DNA of 64,000 nt, from contig NZ_JAKWJS010000008.1 in assembly GCF_022761115.1 (NCBI RefSeq), forward strand, positions 1 through 64,000, written 5' to 3'. This document shows positions 5,007 to 13,194 of this stretch, in pieces; positions within the stretch are counted from its first letter, which is position 1, and the number at the start of each line of letters is the position of its first letter. Source of the stretch: Dyella sp. RRB7. Its GTDB lineage: Bacteria; Pseudomonadota; Gammaproteobacteria; Xanthomonadales; Rhodanobacteraceae. The position numbers were made by a program, and so were the translations under genes. The notes beneath the pieces are model-generated. The model was not told the origin of the DNA and did no database searches. It saw nothing but the letters and a program-made list of their open reading frames with translations.

Positions 5007-6443
5007 TCAGCTCGCCTGTCGCCAGGTGGTCGAAGGGCGGCTGCGCGGCTGGGAATGGATTTCCATCACCGGCATGCGGGGCAGGTCGAACCAGAAGGTG
5101 CTGCCGCGGCCGGGTTCCGAGCGCAGGCCGATCCGGGTGCCCAGCAGTTGCGCCAGTCGCTCGGCAATGGCCAAGCCCAGCCCATAACCGTTGCGACGTT
5201 CGTTCTCGCCGGTCTGCAGCTGGACGAATTCTTCGAAAATCCGCTGCTGGTGAATCACGGCAATGCCCGGACCGTTGTCGCGTACTTCGATGCGGATCGA
5301 CTGGCCGCGGCGACGGGCCGCGATCAGCACGCGGCCGTGCGGTGCATTGATGATGGCATTGCTGGCCAACTGGTAGAGCAGGTTGGCGGCGACGTCGGCG
5401 TCCCCGTGCAGGTGATGATGGCTGCCGCGCCATACCAGCGCGACCTGTTGCTGCGCGGCTTCGTGGTTGAGCGAGGTGCGGTCGCGCATGAACAGCTCGG
5501 CCGCGGTGAAGCCGACCGGCTTGACCGCGATGACGCCGGCATCGAGCCGGGATATCTCCAGCAGGGCATCGAGCAGGCGCGTCATCGAGGCGATGCTGGC
5601 GCGTACCTGCCGGAACAGCACTTGCTGCTCATCGTTGGCATGGGCGTCGAAGCCGCCGGCGAACAGTTCCAGCGCTTGCAGGGGTTGGCGGAAGTGGTGG
5701 CTGACCAGGGCAATGAACTGCGATTTGCTGCGGGTGGCGGCCTGGCTCTGGCGCAAGCGGTCAAGCGCTTCGACGGCGTTGTCGCGCTGCATGGCGCTCC
5801 AGTCGCGCCGCTGCTCTTCCTCGACATCGAACAGCTGCTGCACGGTTTGCGTGATCTCGCTGAACTCCGCGCTTACCGGCGTGGTGTCCGTTCCCGGGTG
5901 GCGGCCATGGGCCAGCTCTTGCAGCGAGGCCTGGATATGCGACAGCGGCTCCAGCACGCGATGCCGAAGCGTGACCCGGGACAGCCAGGCCAGCACGATG
6001 ATGCCCGCCGCGCACAGGCTGCCCAGCAGCCACACCATGCCCTTGGCACGCTGCAACGGGCGTGTATCGAATTGCATGCTGAGCCAGGACGCGCTGTTGT
6101 CGCGACCATCCAGCTCGCTGCGATAGGTGGCGACGCCGTCGGCAGGTGCGGTGCCGCTGCTCCAGACGCCGCCGTTGGAACGATGAAGTTCGATTCGACG
6201 CAACTGGTCGGCTTGTCCTTCGCGCAAGACACGATCCAGGGCGTCCTGCGGCGAATGGCTCTCGTCATTCGAGAGCTGACGGGTGATGCGTTCCATGCGC
6301 AGGGCGATGGCTGCGTCGGCGCGTTCGCCGAGGTTATGCACCTGCTGGACGCACAACGCGAGAACCAACGCCAACGCGGCGATCGTGCCTGGAAGCACGA
6401 CATCGATGAACAGGCGGGGAAGCAGGCGGGCGCGCGGCTCCAT
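5007..6443 (-). CDS. membrane sensor histidine kinase
   Basis: 478 aa. Two membrane segments (about 12-33 and 135-155) enclose a periplasmic sensor region of about 100 aa. Then come a HAMP/linker coiled stretch, a HisKA domain with phospho-acceptor His249 in SHHFRQPLQAL, and a HATPase_c domain with an N box (NLLYQLASNAI), DNGPGIA and GYGLGLAIA. No receiver domain is present. The RQPL-type dimerisation helix is shared with the hybrid kinase at 11290-13194, so the two are related. No response regulator is adjacent in the same direction; the LuxR-type regulator at 8535-9218 is a candidate partner. First intact core gene after the island boundary. Confidence 0.9.
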   Translation of the reverse strand: MEPRARLLPRLFIDVVLPGTIAALALVLALCVQQVHNLGERADAAIALRMERITRQLSNDESHSPQDALDRVLREGQADQLRRIELHRSNGGVWSSGTAPADGVATYRSELDGRDNSASWLSMQFDTRPLQRAKGMVWLLGSLCAAGIIVLAWLSRVTLRHRVLEPLSHIQASLQELAHGRHPGTDTTPVSAEFSEITQTVQQLFDVEEEQRRDWSAMQRDNAVEALDRLRQSQAATRSKSQFIALVSHHFRQPLQALELFAGGFDAHANDEQQVLFRQVRASIASMTRLLDALLEISRLDAGVIAVKPVGFTAAELFMRDRTSLNHEAAQQQVALVWRGSHHHLHGDADVAANLLYQLASNAIINAPHGRVLIAARRRGQSIRIEVRDNGPGIAVIHQQRIFEEFVQLQTGENERRNGYGLGLAIAERLAQLLGTRIGLRSEPGRGSTFWFDLPRMPVMEIHSQPRSRPSTTWRQAS

Positions 6444-6786
6444 GCCTCAGGCCTCTGCCATCGGCAAGCGTGATGGCTTCTGGCCTGGTGTCCAGCGGCA
6501 GGGCATGACCTGAGTCGGCTGCATGATGGTGGACCCGCGGCAGTGAGGCACAAAGGCACATCTCCGGCGGAGCGTGCCATGGAGGCCACTCTAAAGAATC
6601 GTAGCAGGGGCGACGATACGCACTTCGTTCTAGCGCCAGGTGCCGTAGTGCAAACGGTCTATCTGCCCTTGCCGACAGGCCGGCGTCAGCAAGCAGTGGA
6701 TCGTTTGCGGCAGCGTTGCATGACGGCCAGCCGATTTGGCGCTACCTTGCACACCCGTATGGCCCGTCCGGTCCATGGAGACCCTT
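6444..6786. other. divergent intergenic region, nothing clear
   Basis: About 340 bases between the divergently read kinase gene and the DUF3617 gene. It must hold both promoters, but I see no clear -35/-10 pair, palindrome or small gene with a good ribosome-binding site. Confidence 0.4.
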
Positions 6787-7305
6787 ATGTCCGCTCGTTG
6801 TCGTTGCTTGCTTGCTGTTTCCTTGCTGGGTATCACCGGCATCGCCCTGGCGCAGGATCTCCCGGCCAACATGCCCAAGCGCAAGCCCGGCCTGTGGGAA
6901 ATGCAGACCACCGGCATGGGCGGCCAGCCGCAGCTGATGAAGCTTTGCCTTGATGCCGATACCGACCAGGCGATGTACAAGATGGGCGCACAGATGAGCG
7001 GCCACATGTGCAGCAAGTTCGATATCCACGTGGAAGGCACCACCGTGGTGTCCGATGCCGTCTGCAAGATGGATGGTCCCAATGGCCCGGTCAGCATGAC
7101 CAGCCATAGCGAAACGCGCTTCGAGGGCGATACCTCCTACCAGACCCAGGGCCATGTGACGTATGACCCGGCGATGATGGGGCAGGGCGACATGACGATC
7201 ACCAGCACGGGCCGCTGGGTGGGGCAGTGCGCGGCGGGCCAGAAGCCGGGTGACATGGTGATGCCCAATGGGCAGAGCATGAACATCAAGGATATGCAGC
7301 ATTAA
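6787..7305 (+). CDS. DUF3617 family exported protein
   Basis: 172 aa with a signal peptide (MSARCRCLLAVSLLGITG..., cut near ALA-QD). The mature part has KPGLWEMQTTGMGG near its start, and later paired cysteines (LCLD, HMCSKF, AVCKM) and GRWVGQC, as in DUF3617 proteins, which are periplasmic and of unknown function. Rich in methionine and glycine. Start at 6787 because GGAG precedes it by 6 bases; an earlier in-frame ATG at 6775 lacks this. It stands alone on the plus strand between minus-strand signalling genes. Confidence 0.8.
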   Translation: MSARCRCLLAVSLLGITGIALAQDLPANMPKRKPGLWEMQTTGMGGQPQLMKLCLDADTDQAMYKMGAQMSGHMCSKFDIHVEGTTVVSDAVCKMDGPNGPVSMTSHSETRFEGDTSYQTQGHVTYDPAMMGQGDMTITSTGRWVGQCAAGQKPGDMVMPNGQSMNIKDMQH

Positions 7306-7315
7306 ACCGGCGGCG

Positions 7316-7342
7316 CGCGGCAAGGCAGCCGGCCTTGCCGCG
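7316..7342. terminator. hairpin between convergent genes
   Basis: Perfect 10-base stem CGCGGCAAGG / CCTTGCCGCG with a 7-base loop between the convergent ends of the DUF3617 gene and the PhnD-like gene. There is no T run, so its role as a bidirectional terminator is inferred from position. Confidence 0.55.
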
Positions 7343-7360
7343 TGAACGAGACCGATGGAT

Positions 7361-8431
7361 TCAGGGCGGGGTGGTAGGCGCCATCAGGCGCTTCACCAGG
7401 GCCGCGTGCTCGGCATCGATCTTGTGCAGCCGCGCCTGCATGGCGGCATCGCTTACCCACTGCGCGCTGTAGGCGCGCCGCCGCTCCAGGTTGAATTCGA
7501 TGTCGGCAAACGGCACCAGGGTTTCATTGCCGGCAGGGGTGAATCCGCTGATGTCATGGATCAGTTGCAATTTGGACAGCTCCGCCGAGGCGTTTTTACC
7601 CTTGGCATAGGTGGTCAACGCCGTCGCGACGCGCTGGCGCAGGTCCGCCGGCAGATCCGTGCGTATCACGATGACCGCATGCGGGATCAGGCTGGACGTC
7701 CATAGCACGCGCAGCTTCGCGTACTGATCGGGAAAGCGCTTGGAGAAACGTTCCAGGTCGGCCGTGTTGTTGGTGGCCACGTCGACCTCGTTGTTGGCCA
7801 CGGCCAGCGCATTGTTCTGGTGGTTGTCCACGCTCACGTTGACGAAGAAGGTGTCCGAATCGAGCCGCCGGTTGGCGAACAGCTGCGTTTCGGGCACCAG
7901 GTAGCCCGATACCGACAACACCTCGCCCCGCGCGTAGCGCAATCGCCCCGGTTGCTGGAACAGGTCGTCGATGCTGTGCAGTGGCGAGTCCTTGGCGACC
8001 AATAGCACCGAGTAATAGCCGCGCGAGCCATTGCCTCGGGCCAGCTGGGCAATCACCTGCATGTGGTCCTGGGTGACCGCATCGAGCGCCAGTCGACCGG
8101 ACACGAAGGCGAAGTCCACGCGTTCCTCGGCCATGGCCTGGCCGAGTCCTTCATAGGTGCTCACCGAAAGGCTGTGAATGGGCAGGTGCAGGGTGCGGCT
8201 GAGATCGTCGAGCATGGGGCGCCAGGCTTCGAGCGATTCGGAGGGACCGCCTATTGGCAGGATGCCAAAGGTCAACGCGCGGATATGCGTGCTGCTACCA
8301 CTGGGTGCAGGAGCCGCCACGCTTGGCCCGGTGCCAATCAGGCAGCCGGTGATCAGGCAGGCGCAAAGCAGCCAGACGGATGTCGACCTGACAGGCCAGG
8401 GCCAATGGCTTGGGATCCATCTGCTCGGCAA
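7361..8431 (-). CDS. PhnD-like phosphate/phosphonate-type solute-binding lipoprotein, orphan
   Basis: 356 aa. The N-terminus has a hydrophobic segment ending in the lipobox LITGC (Cys30), so it is probably a lipoprotein. The rest is a type 2 periplasmic binding fold of the PhnD/SsuA group (LTFGILPIGGPSES, YEGLGQAMAEERVDFAFVS, RGYYSVLLVAKDSPLHS, NNEVDVATNN). Start is TTG at 8431, seven bases after GGGGGA. No ABC permease or ATPase is near. It lies 103 bases downstream of a LuxR-type regulator on the same strand, so it may be the ligand-sensing arm of a two-component system rather than an uptake protein. That role is inference. Confidence 0.8.
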   Translation of the reverse strand: MPSRWIPSHWPWPVRSTSVWLLCACLITGCLIGTGPSVAAPAPSGSSTHIRALTFGILPIGGPSESLEAWRPMLDDLSRTLHLPIHSLSVSTYEGLGQAMAEERVDFAFVSGRLALDAVTQDHMQVIAQLARGNGSRGYYSVLLVAKDSPLHSIDDLFQQPGRLRYARGEVLSVSGYLVPETQLFANRRLDSDTFFVNVSVDNHQNNALAVANNEVDVATNNTADLERFSKRFPDQYAKLRVLWTSSLIPHAVIVIRTDLPADLRQRVATALTTYAKGKNASAELSKLQLIHDISGFTPAGNETLVPFADIEFNLERRRAYSAQWVSDAAMQARLHKIDAEHAALVKRLMAPTTPP

Positions 8432-8534
8432 CGCGGCATCCCCCGGGGACCGCCGGATACTCCCGCCCGGAAACGGCGGGGTCGTGGTCGTGTGGGCGAG
8501 GATACGCGAGTGCTGTTAGTGCCAGGTGAAAGCC

Positions 8535-9218
8535 CTAAAGCCCGCTTATCCGGCGCGATGCCACCACTGCCTCGACGCGATTGCGTACGTTGAGCGCGCG
8601 GAAGATGGCGGCGAGATGGATCTTCACCGTGCCCTCGCTGATACCCAGATCGCGCGCGATCAACTTGTTGGGCTTGCCCTGCGAAAGCAGGCGCAGCACG
8701 TCGATCTGGCGTTCGGTAAGCAGTTTGCGCAGGCGTTCTTCGAGCGAATCGAGCGACGATGGCGGCGGCGCTGCGCTGGTGGTGGCCGCCGGCAAGGGTG
8801 TGGCACCGTCCGTCCGCTCCTGCAGCAACAGCGGGGGCACGTACACGCCGCCGGAGAGCACCAGCCGCACCGCCGACAGCATCACATCGGGCGAATAGGC
8901 TTTCGGGATGAAACCCTGCACGCCCATCGCCAGCAGGCTCTTCATCAGGGCCGGATCTTCCGAGCCGGACAACACGATGACCGGCACGCCAGGCAAGCGT
9001 TCGACCACTTCGGCAAGATGCTCGCTGCCCCGCACGCCGGGCATCGCCAGGTCGATCAGGGCAAGCGACAGCGACGATGCCTCCGGCGCATGGAGCGCCT
9101 CGCGCAGTTCGGCCATGTCCATGGCGATGACAAATTCGGTGTCGGGTCCCAGCTCGCCCAACTTGAGCTTGACCCCTTCGACGATCAATCGATGGTCGTC
9201 CGCGATCAGTATGCGCAT
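8535..9218 (-). CDS. LuxR/NarL-family response regulator
   Basis: 227 aa. Receiver domain with acidic pair DD (7-8), phospho-acceptor Asp56 in LIDLAMPG, VIVLSGSED and K in FIPKAYS. A proline/alanine-rich linker leads to a C-terminal LuxR helix-turn-helix (LTERQIDVLRLLSQGKPNKL, GISEGTVKIHLAAIFRALNV). The ATG at 9218 is chosen because GGGGGA lies just before it. It is upstream of the PhnD-like gene on the same strand and divergent from the DotU/IcmF-like gene. Likely partner kinases are those at 5007-6443 or 11290-13194. Confidence 0.9.
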   Translation of the reverse strand: MRILIADDHRLIVEGVKLKLGELGPDTEFVIAMDMAELREALHAPEASSLSLALIDLAMPGVRGSEHLAEVVERLPGVPVIVLSGSEDPALMKSLLAMGVQGFIPKAYSPDVMLSAVRLVLSGGVYVPPLLLQERTDGATPLPAATTSAAPPPSSLDSLEERLRKLLTERQIDVLRLLSQGKPNKLIARDLGISEGTVKIHLAAIFRALNVRNRVEAVVASRRISGL

Positions 9219-9417
9219 GTCATCCCCCATGGCGTCATGCTGCGCTCCCGTTGCCGCATACCCGCCTGCGCAACATAGCCCCAGCTCGCCGATACGGCAA
9301 CCGCATGGCGCTTACGAAAGGCCTAGTCACAAGGTGATATGGCTGCCCCCGCGCATGCTCGCGACAATCAAGACACTGCGATGGGGGACTCATGCGTACC
9401 GTGCTTGAGGCAAGGCG

Positions 9418-11271
9418 GTGGCGTTGCCAGTGCTGTGGGTGGGACGCATGCATGAACAGGCAGATCGGCGGGTATCCGAATCAACAGGCGTGGTGTGGCA
9501 GCGAGGGACTGACCGCAGCTTCTCGCTGCGCGCCCGGCCATCCGGCATGGCCCTAGGCGCCATGCGGTTACTGGAATATTTCTTGCCCCTGTTTTCCTAT
9601 GGACTGCTGATTGACGAGCAGGCCAGCGCGCATGCGCTGTCTGACGATCTCGCTACGGTGCAGGCTCAAGCGCAGGCGCTGCTCGCGCAGGGGCGCCAGC
9701 TTGCGCTGGTCGAGGGCAAGGCGCCGACCGATGTCGAGCTGGCCGGCTTTGCGGTGGTGGCGTGGTTCGACGAGATGATCGGGCGCCACGACGACGCGTG
9801 GGATCATGTCGCGCCCCTGCAGCTGGCGCTGTTCCATACCGGCGGCGCGGCCAGCGAATTCTTCGACCACCTGGCCGGGCTGGGAAGCCAGGCGGAGGAG
9901 GTTCGCGAGGTCTACGGCATGGCCTTGTTGCTCGGCTTCGTCGGGCAGTACTACTACGAGCGCGGCGACCAGGGCGAGCTGGGACGGATCAAGGCGCTGC
10001 ATTGTCCATCCTGTGTGAATGCGCAGGCGTTGCTGCAGTCGCTGCAGCGCGATGCCATCACGCCACAGCCCTATCGCGCGCCCGGGGCGCCGGTGAACCA
10101 TTTGCAGGCGGCCTGGATGGGCCGGCCCGCTCCCTTCGTGGCCGGCTCGGTCGTGCTGCTGGTACTGCTCGCCTTCGTTGCCCCGGTGGTGAGCAGCGCG
10201 ATGTCCACGCAGGCCTGGTACCTGGCCGCGGTCGCGGTGGTCATCGCCGGGGCGCTCAGCTGGGCCGCCACGGTGGCCTGGCACGAACTGGTGCTCAAGC
10301 GTGGACACAACCGCTTGGCCACCGATCCGCAGGCCGGCTATGGCGCGGGCGAGCTATGGGCCGCCATCGTGGACGCTGCGCGGCACGCGCGTGGCGCGAT
10401 ACTTCATCCGTTTCGCCGACGCCGGGCATGGCGGCGGCTAGCCCGACACCCGTGGTTGCTGTTCCTGGGCGACAGCGCGGCGAATGTCCGTGGACTGCTG
10501 CGCGCGGCAGCACATGCGCCGCATGCACGGGAGTTCTCCGGCGAGGAGGTCGCCAAGCCCTGGCATTGGTGGGTGTTTCGATCGCTGATCGCCATCGAGC
10601 CCGGCCAGCACCTGATGCCGGAGGCGGATGGTGTGCGCGGCGATGAGGCGCCCTGGGAACAGGCACTGGCCTTGCTGGCGCGGGAGCGCCGCAAGCTGCC
10701 ACTCGACGGCATGGTGCTTTGCGCCGCCGCGCACAGCCTGCTCGGGCCGACGCCGGCCGTCGAGTCGTATGCGGCGACGCTGTGTGACTTGGCCGGCGAG
10801 GCCGCCCAACGTATGCAGCTGCAGCTGCCGTTCTATGTGGTGATGACCGGCCTGGATGCGTTGCCGGGGTATGCGACGTTCAGGGCCGCGCTGCCACCGG
10901 CAGTGTTGCATCGGGCGCTGGGCGCGCGACTACCCGCGATGCCGGGCGATGGGCGCGTGGACGTGCCGTGGAACGCCTTGGACGAGCAGTTGCGGCGGGT
11001 GGCGCTGGCCGTGCTGGCGATGCAGCGTGAGCCTCACGGCCGGCGCGTAGTGTTCGACTTTGTGCAGTCGTTGCCGGCGTTCCAGCGTGGTCTGCAGACA
11101 TTCCTCGATGGCGTGCTGGCGAACCCGGTGGTGGCATCGCGCAGGCTGCATTGGTGTGGCCTCTACCTGACCGGCGAGCCCCAGGCGGATGCGCCAGGCG
11201 GCGATTTTGTCGATGACCTGTTCCTTCGTTTTCTGCCAGGCGACTGGTTGCTGGCGCGTCGTCTGGCATGA
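9418..11271 (+). CDS. DotU/TssL - IcmF/TssM N-terminal fusion, orphan type VI secretion-like protein
   Basis: 617 aa, GTG start with GAGG seven bases upstream. Residues about 50-205 look like DotU/TssL (LEYFLPLFSYGLLIDEQA, VVAWFDEMIG, LQLALFHTGGAASEFFDHL, GFVGQYYYERGDQGEL). Two membrane segments follow (about 240-262 and 267-290). Residues 345-600 follow the N-terminal cytoplasmic part of IcmF/TssM (PWLLFLGDSAANVRGLL, KPWHWWVFRSLIAIEPGQH, PFYVVMTGLDALPGY). The IcmF nucleotide-binding loop (GxxGxGKT) is replaced by GDSAANVRG, so GTP/ATP binding is probably lost. The large periplasmic IcmF part is missing. No other secretion gene is nearby. It may be a relic or a repurposed inner-membrane scaffold. 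Confidence 0.7.
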   Translation: MALPVLWVGRMHEQADRRVSESTGVVWQRGTDRSFSLRARPSGMALGAMRLLEYFLPLFSYGLLIDEQASAHALSDDLATVQAQAQALLAQGRQLALVEGKAPTDVELAGFAVVAWFDEMIGRHDDAWDHVAPLQLALFHTGGAASEFFDHLAGLGSQAEEVREVYGMALLLGFVGQYYYERGDQGELGRIKALHCPSCVNAQALLQSLQRDAITPQPYRAPGAPVNHLQAAWMGRPAPFVAGSVVLLVLLAFVAPVVSSAMSTQAWYLAAVAVVIAGALSWAATVAWHELVLKRGHNRLATDPQAGYGAGELWAAIVDAARHARGAILHPFRRRRAWRRLARHPWLLFLGDSAANVRGLLRAAAHAPHAREFSGEEVAKPWHWWVFRSLIAIEPGQHLMPEADGVRGDEAPWEQALALLARERRKLPLDGMVLCAAAHSLLGPTPAVESYAATLCDLAGEAAQRMQLQLPFYVVMTGLDALPGYATFRAALPPAVLHRALGARLPAMPGDGRVDVPWNALDEQLRRVALAVLAMQREPHGRRVVFDFVQSLPAFQRGLQTFLDGVLANPVVASRRLHWCGLYLTGEPQADAPGGDFVDDLFLRFLPGDWLLARRLA

Positions 11272-11289: not shown

Positions 11290-13194
11290 TCAGGCCACGG
11301 TCGCGTGCGCGGCATTCCACGCCACCATCATGGCTTCCTTCAGCTGCTCGGGCGATACCGGCTTGTAGAGCACCGGGATTTTGGCGGCCATGATCTCGCG
11401 AAGGCGATCGCTGCGGGTTTCGCCGGTGATGAGCAAACGCGAGAAGGGCGCGTTGCCGTCGCGCTCATAGTGCTGATCCAGCGCGGCCAATACGTCCAGC
11501 CCGCTTTCGCCATCGCGCAGGCGGAGATCGGAAATGACGATATCGGGCGGTGCCGGCCATTCCTCGGCGGCCTGCAAGGCCTGCACGCGATCCTCGGCGA
11601 CCGCGACCTCGCAACCCCAGCTGCGCAGCAGGTAACGGATGCCCGAGAGGATGGCCGGCTCGTCGTCGACCACCAGCACGCGCATGCCGGAAACGTCCAG
11701 AGGCGTTTCGTCGGCGGGTGGACTCGACAGCGCTTGTGGGGGCACTTCCGGCAGGTGAAAACTGAATACGCTGCCGCGCCCGGGGTTCGACTGCAGCTGC
11801 ACCTGCGTGTCGAGCAGTTCCGCCAGGCGCTGCACGGTGGCCAAGCCCAGCCCCAGGCCGCGGCGCGGGCCGGTGTCGTGTTCGCCGCCGTTCTGGCATT
11901 CCACCCGATAGAACTCGTCGAATACGCGCGCCTGATGTTCGGGGGCGATGCCGCTGCCGGTGTCCCATACATCGACGCGCACCGTGCCATCGCCGCGCCG
12001 GCGCGCCACCACCAGCACGCCGCCTTTGCTGGTGTAACGCAACGCGTTGCTGACGAGGTTGTTGAGAATGCGCGCGAGCATGGTGTGGTCGCTGCGCACC
12101 CACAGGTTGGTGGCGCGCATGATCAGGCGCAGGCCATGCTGCTCGGCGATCATGCGGAAGTTGCGGCTGACTTCCTCGAACACCTGGTCGAGCGGGAATT
12201 CGGTGATCTCGATCTGCATCGCGCCGGTTTCCAGGCGCGACAGGTCGAGCAACTCGCTGAACAGGTGATCGAGTGCCTCCACGCACTCCTGGATGTGCGC
12301 GATGCGGTCGAGCCGCACCGGGTCGCGTTCGTCCACGGCCAGCGAGGAAGAGAACAGGGTAAGCGCATACAGCGGCTGGCGAAGATCGTGCGAGGCGGCG
12401 GCGAGAAAGCGCGCCTTGGCGACGCTGGCCGCTTCCAGCGCGGCGTTCTTGCGCGCCAGCTCCACGGTGGCGTGCTCGATCTCTTTTTCCATGCCGCGTT
12501 GCACGTCGAACAGGGCCAGGGCTGCACTGTTGAAGCCACGTTGCAGTTCGCCGATCTCGCTCTGGTCGGTGACCTCCACCTCCACATGACGGTCGCCACG
12601 ACCGAGCTGGTGCACGGCGGCGACCAGGCGGCGCAGCGGCGCGCTGATCCATCGCGCGGCCTGCCAGCCGATCACCGCGGCCACCAGCAGGCTGACCAGC
12701 AGGGCGATCAAGGCGTGCTGCAGGCTGGCATGTTGCGCGGCAATGGCGTCGCTTAGGCTGACATCCACCATTACCGAGCCCAGCACGGGGTGGCCTGGCT
12801 GGTCAGTATCGACCACGTCGCGCATCACCGTCAGCGTTTCGGTGTTGTTGACGCCGCTGCGTCCCAGTTCATCGGCAAGGATCTCGCCATCGGCGGCGCG
12901 GATCTGCACGCGCGCGACGTGGGGCAGTTCTCCAATGGATTCGGCAATGCGCACCAGCTCGCGGCGCTGCATGTCGCGCAGGGGCGCGGCGGTTACCGAG
13001 GCGGCCTGCGTGGCGATGGCATCGGCGGTGTTCTGCGCCATGCTGCGCAGGCTGGCCAGCTGGTGCTGGGTGAGCATGGCGACCAGCAGCGTGGCGGTCA
13101 CCAGGGTGGGCACGAGCGCAACAAGGGCTAGTCGCTGCATCAGCGACGTGCGCCTCCACCACCGAACTGCCCGGGAGTTCGCCCCTGCACCCAT
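11290..13194 (-). CDS. hybrid sensor histidine kinase with C-terminal receiver
   Basis: 634 aa. Membrane segments at about 20-42 and 160-180 flank a periplasmic sensor of about 115 aa. Then HAMP, a coiled stretch, HisKA with His269 in SHDLRQPLYAL, HATPase_c (ILNNLVSNALRYT, DTGSGIAP, GLGLGLATV) and a receiver domain from about residue 505 (MRVLVVDDEPAILSG, Asp in VISDLRLRDGE, K in VLYKPVSP). Same RQPL subfamily as the kinase at 5007-6443. Its 3' end faces that of the DotU/IcmF-like gene 18 bases away. Same direction as TVP38 and the deaminase, with a 92-base gap. A start at Met19 is possible. Confidence 0.9.
   Translation of the reverse strand: MGAGANSRAVRWWRRTSLMQRLALVALVPTLVTATLLVAMLTQHQLASLRSMAQNTADAIATQAASVTAAPLRDMQRRELVRIAESIGELPHVARVQIRAADGEILADELGRSGVNNTETLTVMRDVVDTDQPGHPVLGSVMVDVSLSDAIAAQHASLQHALIALLVSLLVAAVIGWQAARWISAPLRRLVAAVHQLGRGDRHVEVEVTDQSEIGELQRGFNSAALALFDVQRGMEKEIEHATVELARKNAALEAASVAKARFLAAASHDLRQPLYALTLFSSSLAVDERDPVRLDRIAHIQECVEALDHLFSELLDLSRLETGAMQIEITEFPLDQVFEEVSRNFRMIAEQHGLRLIMRATNLWVRSDHTMLARILNNLVSNALRYTSKGGVLVVARRRGDGTVRVDVWDTGSGIAPEHQARVFDEFYRVECQNGGEHDTGPRRGLGLGLATVQRLAELLDTQVQLQSNPGRGSVFSFHLPEVPPQALSSPPADETPLDVSGMRVLVVDDEPAILSGIRYLLRSWGCEVAVAEDRVQALQAAEEWPAPPDIVISDLRLRDGESGLDVLAALDQHYERDGNAPFSRLLITGETRSDRLREIMAAKIPVLYKPVSPEQLKEAMMVAWNAAHATVA

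Follow-up and report, generated by a model that had tools for sequence, protein, structure and literature searches.

A stand-alone TssL-TssM fusion conserved in Dyella and its possible role as an inner-membrane docking platform

We found that a gene at positions 9562 to 11271 (forward strand) of the window, by which we mean the whole analyzed stretch of 64,000 nucleotides from Dyella sp. RRB7, encodes a single protein in which the cytoplasmic domain of TssL (DotU) is joined to the N-terminal cytoplasmic domain of TssM (IcmF). The fusion is conserved throughout the sampled genus and is under purifying selection, although it is less constrained than its neighbors, and it has probably acquired a new function. 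We propose that the cytoplasmic docking face of the type VI secretion system (T6SS) membrane complex was exapted here as a scaffold or docking platform at the inner membrane; we give this reading a probability of about 0.5.

The reading frame that contains the gene is open from 9418 to 11271, which corresponds to 617 amino acids, and a preliminary description of this DNA had considered the frame intact over 617 codons. The frame is indeed open, but the ATG of the motif 'MRLL[ED]' at 9562, about 48 codons downstream of 9418, is the start shared by the 20 genus genomes that we sampled. (By genus we mean the genome grouping that we used, which places Dyella tabacisoli in a sister genus.) Therefore, the fusion is most likely a protein of 569 amino acids, and the alignment indicates that the true start is probably at 9562. 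Inspection of the window by eye revealed no clear ribosome-binding site before this position. In the numbering of the 617-residue frame, PF09850 (DotU) matches residues 51-254 (E 5.3e-19; 69.1 bits against a Pfam cut-off of 27) and PF14331 (IcmF-related_N) matches residues 408-595 (E 8.1e-27; 94.6 bits against a cut-off of 25). Both scores exceed the curated cut-offs, and so the earlier proposal that an N-terminal DotU part and the N-terminal part of IcmF lie in one frame is well founded, including the significant IcmF match in the second half. Among the NCBIfam profiles, TIGR03349 scored 54 bits on the fusion, under its cut-off of 89.95, and TIGR03348 (TssM) scored 89.8 bits, below its cut-off of 388.15, with a match that covers only positions 33-369 of the 1168 in the profile. 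The missing periplasmic part, which had also been noted, is thus apparent both from this truncated match and from the frames themselves, all of which end before the position of the third transmembrane segment (TM3) of TssM.

The TssL/DotU cytoplasmic domain (9565 to 10092, forward strand) was assigned from Pfam, tblastn, invariant columns and a fold match. By tblastn, this part and residues 3-180 of the unfused TssL from a sister-genus genome (G046) share 53% identity, and residues D70-E71 of the fusion are invariant in the genus alignment. It is followed by a putative two-helix membrane hairpin (10135 to 10281, forward strand), assigned from hydropathy and alignment, which stands in place of the single transmembrane segment of TssL. 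Two hydrophobic segments at about residues 186-240 were found in all 20 genus proteins, and a third, weak hydropathy peak further along in one of them. The membrane segments align to TM1-TM2 of TssM, and the C-terminal anchor that follows the cytoplasmic domain in TssL is absent. The third part, the N-terminal cytoplasmic domain of IcmF/TssM (10450 to 11256, forward strand; Pfam, tblastn and fold search), is 44% identical to residues 112-383 of TssM from the same sister-genus genome. The C-terminus of the fusion corresponds in the alignments to the sequence preceding TM3 in TssM, and TM3 and the periplasmic region are absent. Given that the fusion ends just before the TM3 position, the periplasmic parts of both parent proteins are gone and, as far as the alignments indicate, the fusion is the cytoplasmic side of TssL and TssM on one hairpin. 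An AlphaFold model of the fusion has middling confidence (pLDDT 69.5, pTM 0.67). Its DotU half matches the TssL structure 6y4r (Z 18.4, rmsd 3.5 over 147 residues), and its second domain matches many G proteins at Z 12-13. The top rows of a Foldseek search with the whole model are also G proteins, at large rmsd, from which we conclude only that the IcmF half, as modeled, has a G-protein-like fold.

The two domains are therefore recognizable, but the fusion differs from both parents. It shares the cytoplasmic domain of TssL by profile and fold, whereas the T6SS TssL has its own membrane anchor instead of the TssM hairpin, and no sheath gene occurs in 14 of the 20 fusion-bearing genomes. It also has the TM1-TM2 hairpin and the N-terminal cytoplasmic domain in common with TssM, but that protein is about 1170 residues long as compared with about 380 residues of TssM in the fusion, which lacks TM3, the periplasmic domains and the P-loop. 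The sequence at the former P-loop position is GDSAANVRG (10468 to 10494, forward strand), and in this respect the site described earlier is confirmed by alignment to TssM. All 20 genus fusions carry GD[SDN]xxxVR at this position and lack a Walker A motif. However, the replacement is not peculiar to the fusion: TssM of the sister lineage, which is unfused, reads GDTEANVHG or similar at this site, and Walker A is missing from all four unfused TssM proteins that we aligned. Thus, the P-loop is not a discriminating criterion, and its loss is ancestral and older than the fusion. Loss of the P-loop as a consequence of the fusion is thereby ruled out.

The fusion was intact in each of the 20 sampled genus genomes (including that of the window), with 569-582 amino acids, no internal stops and nearly the same end. 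The other 19 proteins are 55-63% identical to that of the window, and the genomes matched include those of D. sedimenti, D. solisilvae, D. kyungheensis, D. japonica and D. halodurans. For recovery of the loci, a protein-query scan of contigs gave no relatives and an alignment-based scan gave 13 loci. Tree distances of the fusion correlate with the mean of ten neighboring genes at r 0.96 (153 pairs, from the 18 of 20 genomes that have all of the genes), so that the fusion has been inherited vertically; a recent horizontal gain is ruled out by this agreement and by the presence of the gene in every sampled genus genome. We then calculated dN/dS by simple Nei-Gojobori counts without a model of GC bias. 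In the ten pairs with the smallest dS (0.34-0.71), the fusion gave values of 0.066-0.181, and the controls in the same pairs gave 0.05-0.11 (response regulator), 0.06-0.14 (PhnD-like protein), 0.02-0.09 (hybrid kinase) and 0.06-0.18 (VTT-like protein). When these pairs were analyzed by part, the DotU part did not exceed 0.19 and the IcmF part 0.17, and the short hairpin reached 0.33 in one pair. Across the 184 of 190 pairs with dS below 1.5, the median for the fusion was 0.27 and the maximum 0.44, as compared with 0.11-0.18 for the four controls. The mean tree distance was likewise larger (0.78, against 0.10-0.30 for five neighbors), which indicates that the fusion evolves faster than its neighbors. 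The 20 intact orthologues and the low dN/dS rule out debris or a sequencing artefact, and they agree with the earlier opinion that the gene is not a pseudogene.

In a sister lineage, the position of the fusion is occupied by a T6SS cluster, and the origin of the fusion can therefore be traced directly. In two sister-genus genomes, one of which is D. tabacisoli L4-6, T6SS genes lie between the counterparts of the hybrid kinase and of the regulator/PhnD pair that flank the fusion. The enclosed genes, as labeled by Pfam, encode TssE, Hcp, TssC, TssB, TssA, TssM, TssL, TssK and a TraB-family protein, and in D. tabacisoli those for TssF, TssG, TssH and VgrG are found beyond PhnD. Here, tssL and tssM are separate genes with the same orientation, tssL immediately upstream, in the order K-L-M-A. 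The sequences closest to the fusion parts that we found are the unfused TssL (52%) and TssM (38-39%) of the sister genus and of Rhodanobacter sp. L36. We suggest that the fusion arose by an in-frame deletion that removed the sequence between the TssL cytoplasmic domain and TM1 of TssM, and that all of TssM beyond its cytoplasmic domain was also lost. D. tabacisoli and Rhodanobacter sp. L36 have the regulator and PhnD beside the cluster as at the fusion locus, with the hybrid kinase as well in D. tabacisoli, but they carry two genes with periplasmic parts within a T6SS cluster instead of one stand-alone fusion. The same cluster type is accompanied by the regulator and PhnD in Lysobacter sp. ISL-50 and by the regulator in a metagenome bin. 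When sixteen proteins of the sister-lineage cluster were sought at the locus in the 20 genus genomes (E 0.01), only TssL, TssM and cross-matches to the response regulator were obtained. The TssL of D. tabacisoli (L065:7995-9338) has a DUF4384 domain after its membrane segment, and no OmpA domain was matched in it.

The preliminary description had called the gene an orphan with no other secretion gene nearby, and for T6SS genes this is what we observed: in each of the 20 genomes, the surrounding 16-20 kb contain only the TssL and TssM parts. A search of the window's genome, which covered DotU, TssC, TssK and relatives of the fusion, gave a single DotU and neither TssC nor TssK. Across the genus, TssC is absent from 14 genomes and TssK from 15; TssC in the other six and TssK in the other five are encoded at places other than the fusion locus. 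A separate TssM-like frame of 1173-1263 codons is also present in each of the six TssC-bearing genomes. Given that the fusion is kept with or without a T6SS, and that these six have a TssM-like frame of their own, the fusion is not needed to supply a T6SS.

How, then, might the fusion act? The TssM hairpin would anchor both domains at the inner membrane, and the two ends of the protein would lie in the cytoplasm. TssL binds TssK and TssE in the T6SS, and the cytoplasmic domains of TssL and TssM would together be the surface that receives the baseplate. Since most genus genomes have no TssC or TssK, these T6SS partners are gone; since both domains have been kept, we infer that the fusion is a docking platform for a different partner. 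Once the machine was lost, the fusion would have been retained at the inner membrane to gather a cytoplasmic protein. Our guess is that this partner belongs to the flanking envelope-signaling module, which comprises a hybrid kinase, a response regulator and a PhnD-like sensor, and these flanking genes are the best candidates that we can name. The earlier suggestion of a repurposed membrane scaffold rather than a pseudogene is thus the best reading of the significant IcmF match, the conservation in 20 of 20 genomes and the purifying selection, with the scaffold itself being the conjectural part.

The module surrounds the fusion in a constant order. The gene for a LuxR-type response regulator (8535 to 9230, reverse strand) is divergent to the fusion, and that for a PhnD-like periplasmic binding protein (7361 to 8431, reverse strand) lies beyond it; both adjoin T6SS genes in sister lineages too. 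On the other side, a gene for a hybrid histidine kinase (HAMP-HisKA-HATPase-REC by Pfam and locus comparison; 11290 to 13194, reverse strand) converges with the fusion. All 20 genus loci have the order hybrid kinase, fusion, response regulator, PhnD-like protein, DUF3617 protein and second kinase. It is conceivable, as a tentative extension of the docking reading, that the fusion is a stand-alone signaling hub of the inner membrane, with DotU and the P-loop-less IcmF_N, a pseudo-GTPase, on one hairpin operating with the kinase, the regulator and the PhnD-like sensor independently of secretion; the step from platform to signaling is a guess. A more restricted role, in which the fusion serves the adjacent sensory pathway and nothing else (for example, as an adaptor of the hybrid kinase), seems unlikely to us. 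It would accord with the invariant gene order, with the association of regulator and PhnD with T6SS loci in the sister genus, Rhodanobacter and Lysobacter, and with the partial tree correlation between fusion and kinase, which is the highest among the neighbors tested (partial r 0.62; next 0.50). However, this correlation could reflect physical linkage, as adjacent genes have a common recombination history, and the gene order is explained by ancestry. Moreover, eight loci of other genera keep kinase, regulator and PhnD together without a T6SS or the fusion at the locus, so that the module does not need the fusion. In one of these eight (G028), the gap between kinase and regulator is filled by an unrelated frame that resembles a Na+/H+ antiporter by eye; this genome and another of the eight (G029) have a TssM-like gene elsewhere.

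The intergenic region between regulator and fusion contains a conserved element, CTAGTCACAAGGTGATATGG (9323 to 9342, forward strand), the core of which recurs ahead of TraB-tssK at two T6SS loci of the sister genus. We searched for it with the pattern [TG]A.GT[GC]ATATGG or a longer form, picked by eye from the alignment. The pattern was matched in 11 of the 20 genus loci and in both sister T6SS loci, where it lies between the regulator and TraB-tssK, and it was absent from nine genus loci (including eight of one subclade), from all eight fusion-less loci and from the three T6SS loci of Rhodanobacter, Lysobacter and the metagenome bin. This distribution suggests that the fusion may have kept the old T6SS control region.

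We also examined the distribution of the fusion beyond the genus. The proposal that conservation across Rhodanobacteraceae be checked has a divided outcome: all 20 genus genomes have the gene, but none of the 213 other family genomes gave a full-length match (scan of 233 genomes, five candidates scored per genome). A fusion profile run on a class sample of 369 genomes gave 13 matches, that of the window among them and none of full length outside the genus (at most three candidates per genome). With Pfam DotU and at most eight candidates per genome, a class sample of 369 genomes (89 with DotU) contained no other DotU frame of more than 523 codons, and a phylum sample of 378 genomes (83 with DotU) contained nine other frames of more than 530 codons. 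Because few candidates were scored per genome, these counts may miss weak members. Pfam analysis covered six of the nine long frames (all except those of G721, G743 and G914): one, in genome G685, is a DotU-IcmF_N fusion, another, in G870, joins a partial DotU to IcmF, and four have no IcmF match. The G870 frame (L131:369-2846, 826 amino acids) combines partial DotU with the middle, helical and C-terminal domains of IcmF but without IcmF_N, and is thus the opposite kind of DotU-IcmF join.

The fusion of G685, which belongs to another class of the phylum, is one protein of 635 amino acids with DotU at 11-215 and IcmF_N at 387-628. Its domains follow the same order as those of the Dyella fusion, and it ends at about the same point; however, it lies inside a T6SS operon, whereas the Dyella fusion stands alone. 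This operon (TssK-LM-A-BC-Hcp-E-F-G-VgrG by Pfam labels; L134:8435-19894) also encodes TssB-TssC as one protein (781 amino acids), and the fusion gene has a four-base overlap with TssK on its upstream side and another with TssA on its downstream side. The fusion is the only DotU found in G685 among the candidates scored, and no ClpV match was obtained in the 55 kb examined. The operon leaves no room for the periplasmic part of TssM, although one elsewhere in the genome is possible, as the query was too distant even for the IcmF half of this fusion. In 299 genomes around G685, there was no second full-length copy of this type; the genomes of its three genus mates are 69-83% complete. We infer that the DotU-IcmF_N architecture arose at least twice, and the G685 fusion seems to fill the place of TssL and TssM in a T6SS. 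By analogy, the Dyella fusion might anchor a reduced contractile or T6SS-like machine encoded elsewhere; the G685 arrangement speaks for this, but neither TssC nor TssK was found in the genome of the window, and we consider it very improbable.

We also considered that the fusion may be a decoy or brake on other T6SSs of the same cell, capturing the baseplate proteins TssK and TssG. Six genus genomes do encode TssC elsewhere, and the baseplate protein TssG binds the cytoplasmic loop of TssM in known T6SSs (PMC4604203). However, 14 of the 20 fusion-bearing genomes, that of the window included, lack TssC, which makes this role very improbable. Slow decay of the remains of a lost T6SS, with which the faster evolution of the fusion would agree, is hardly credible in view of 20 intact frames that share their start and end at almost the same position, dN/dS well under 1 and the absence from the locus of the other T6SS genes sought.

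Under the docking-platform reading, the fusion is a readable case of the loss of a machine followed by exaptation of one of its faces. A genus that keeps just the cytoplasmic domains of TssL and TssM, mostly without a T6SS sheath gene, also makes a separable activity of these domains testable. The G685 operon, with no adjacent periplasmic part of TssM, suggests that the cytoplasmic half may be enough for a membrane complex to work; if true, this bears on models of T6SS assembly. To our knowledge, TssL and TssM have been studied as parts of secretion machines. A membrane pair of IcmF and DotU also occurs outside the T6SS, as two separate proteins, in the Dot/Icm type IVB secretion system of Legionella, but the corresponding profile (NF038226) scored only 11.3 bits on the Dyella fusion. 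Among the matches listed in the literature searched, no title or abstract opening describes a TssL-TssM fusion, and the portions of text available contain no description of a stand-alone, cytoplasm-only TssL-TssM kept after loss of the machine. A survey of T6SSs in Xanthomonadales covers Dyella clusters and contains none of the words fusion, PhnD and histidine kinase (PMC6653060). The domains themselves are known.

Two minor observations concern the flanking genes. The flanking genes at window positions 5007-9230 and 11290-13194 include a LuxR-type regulator that adjoins this type of T6SS at four loci (L065, L066, L067 and L068), with a PhnD-like protein at three of the four. The regulator also remains in other genera without a T6SS at the locus, and these genes may be an unrecognized set of T6SS regulators. 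In addition, the window's genome encodes a second PhnD-like protein (C16:126815-127810), which is 48% identical to the one adjacent to the fusion, and two PhnD-like matches were found in 19 of the 20 genus genomes.
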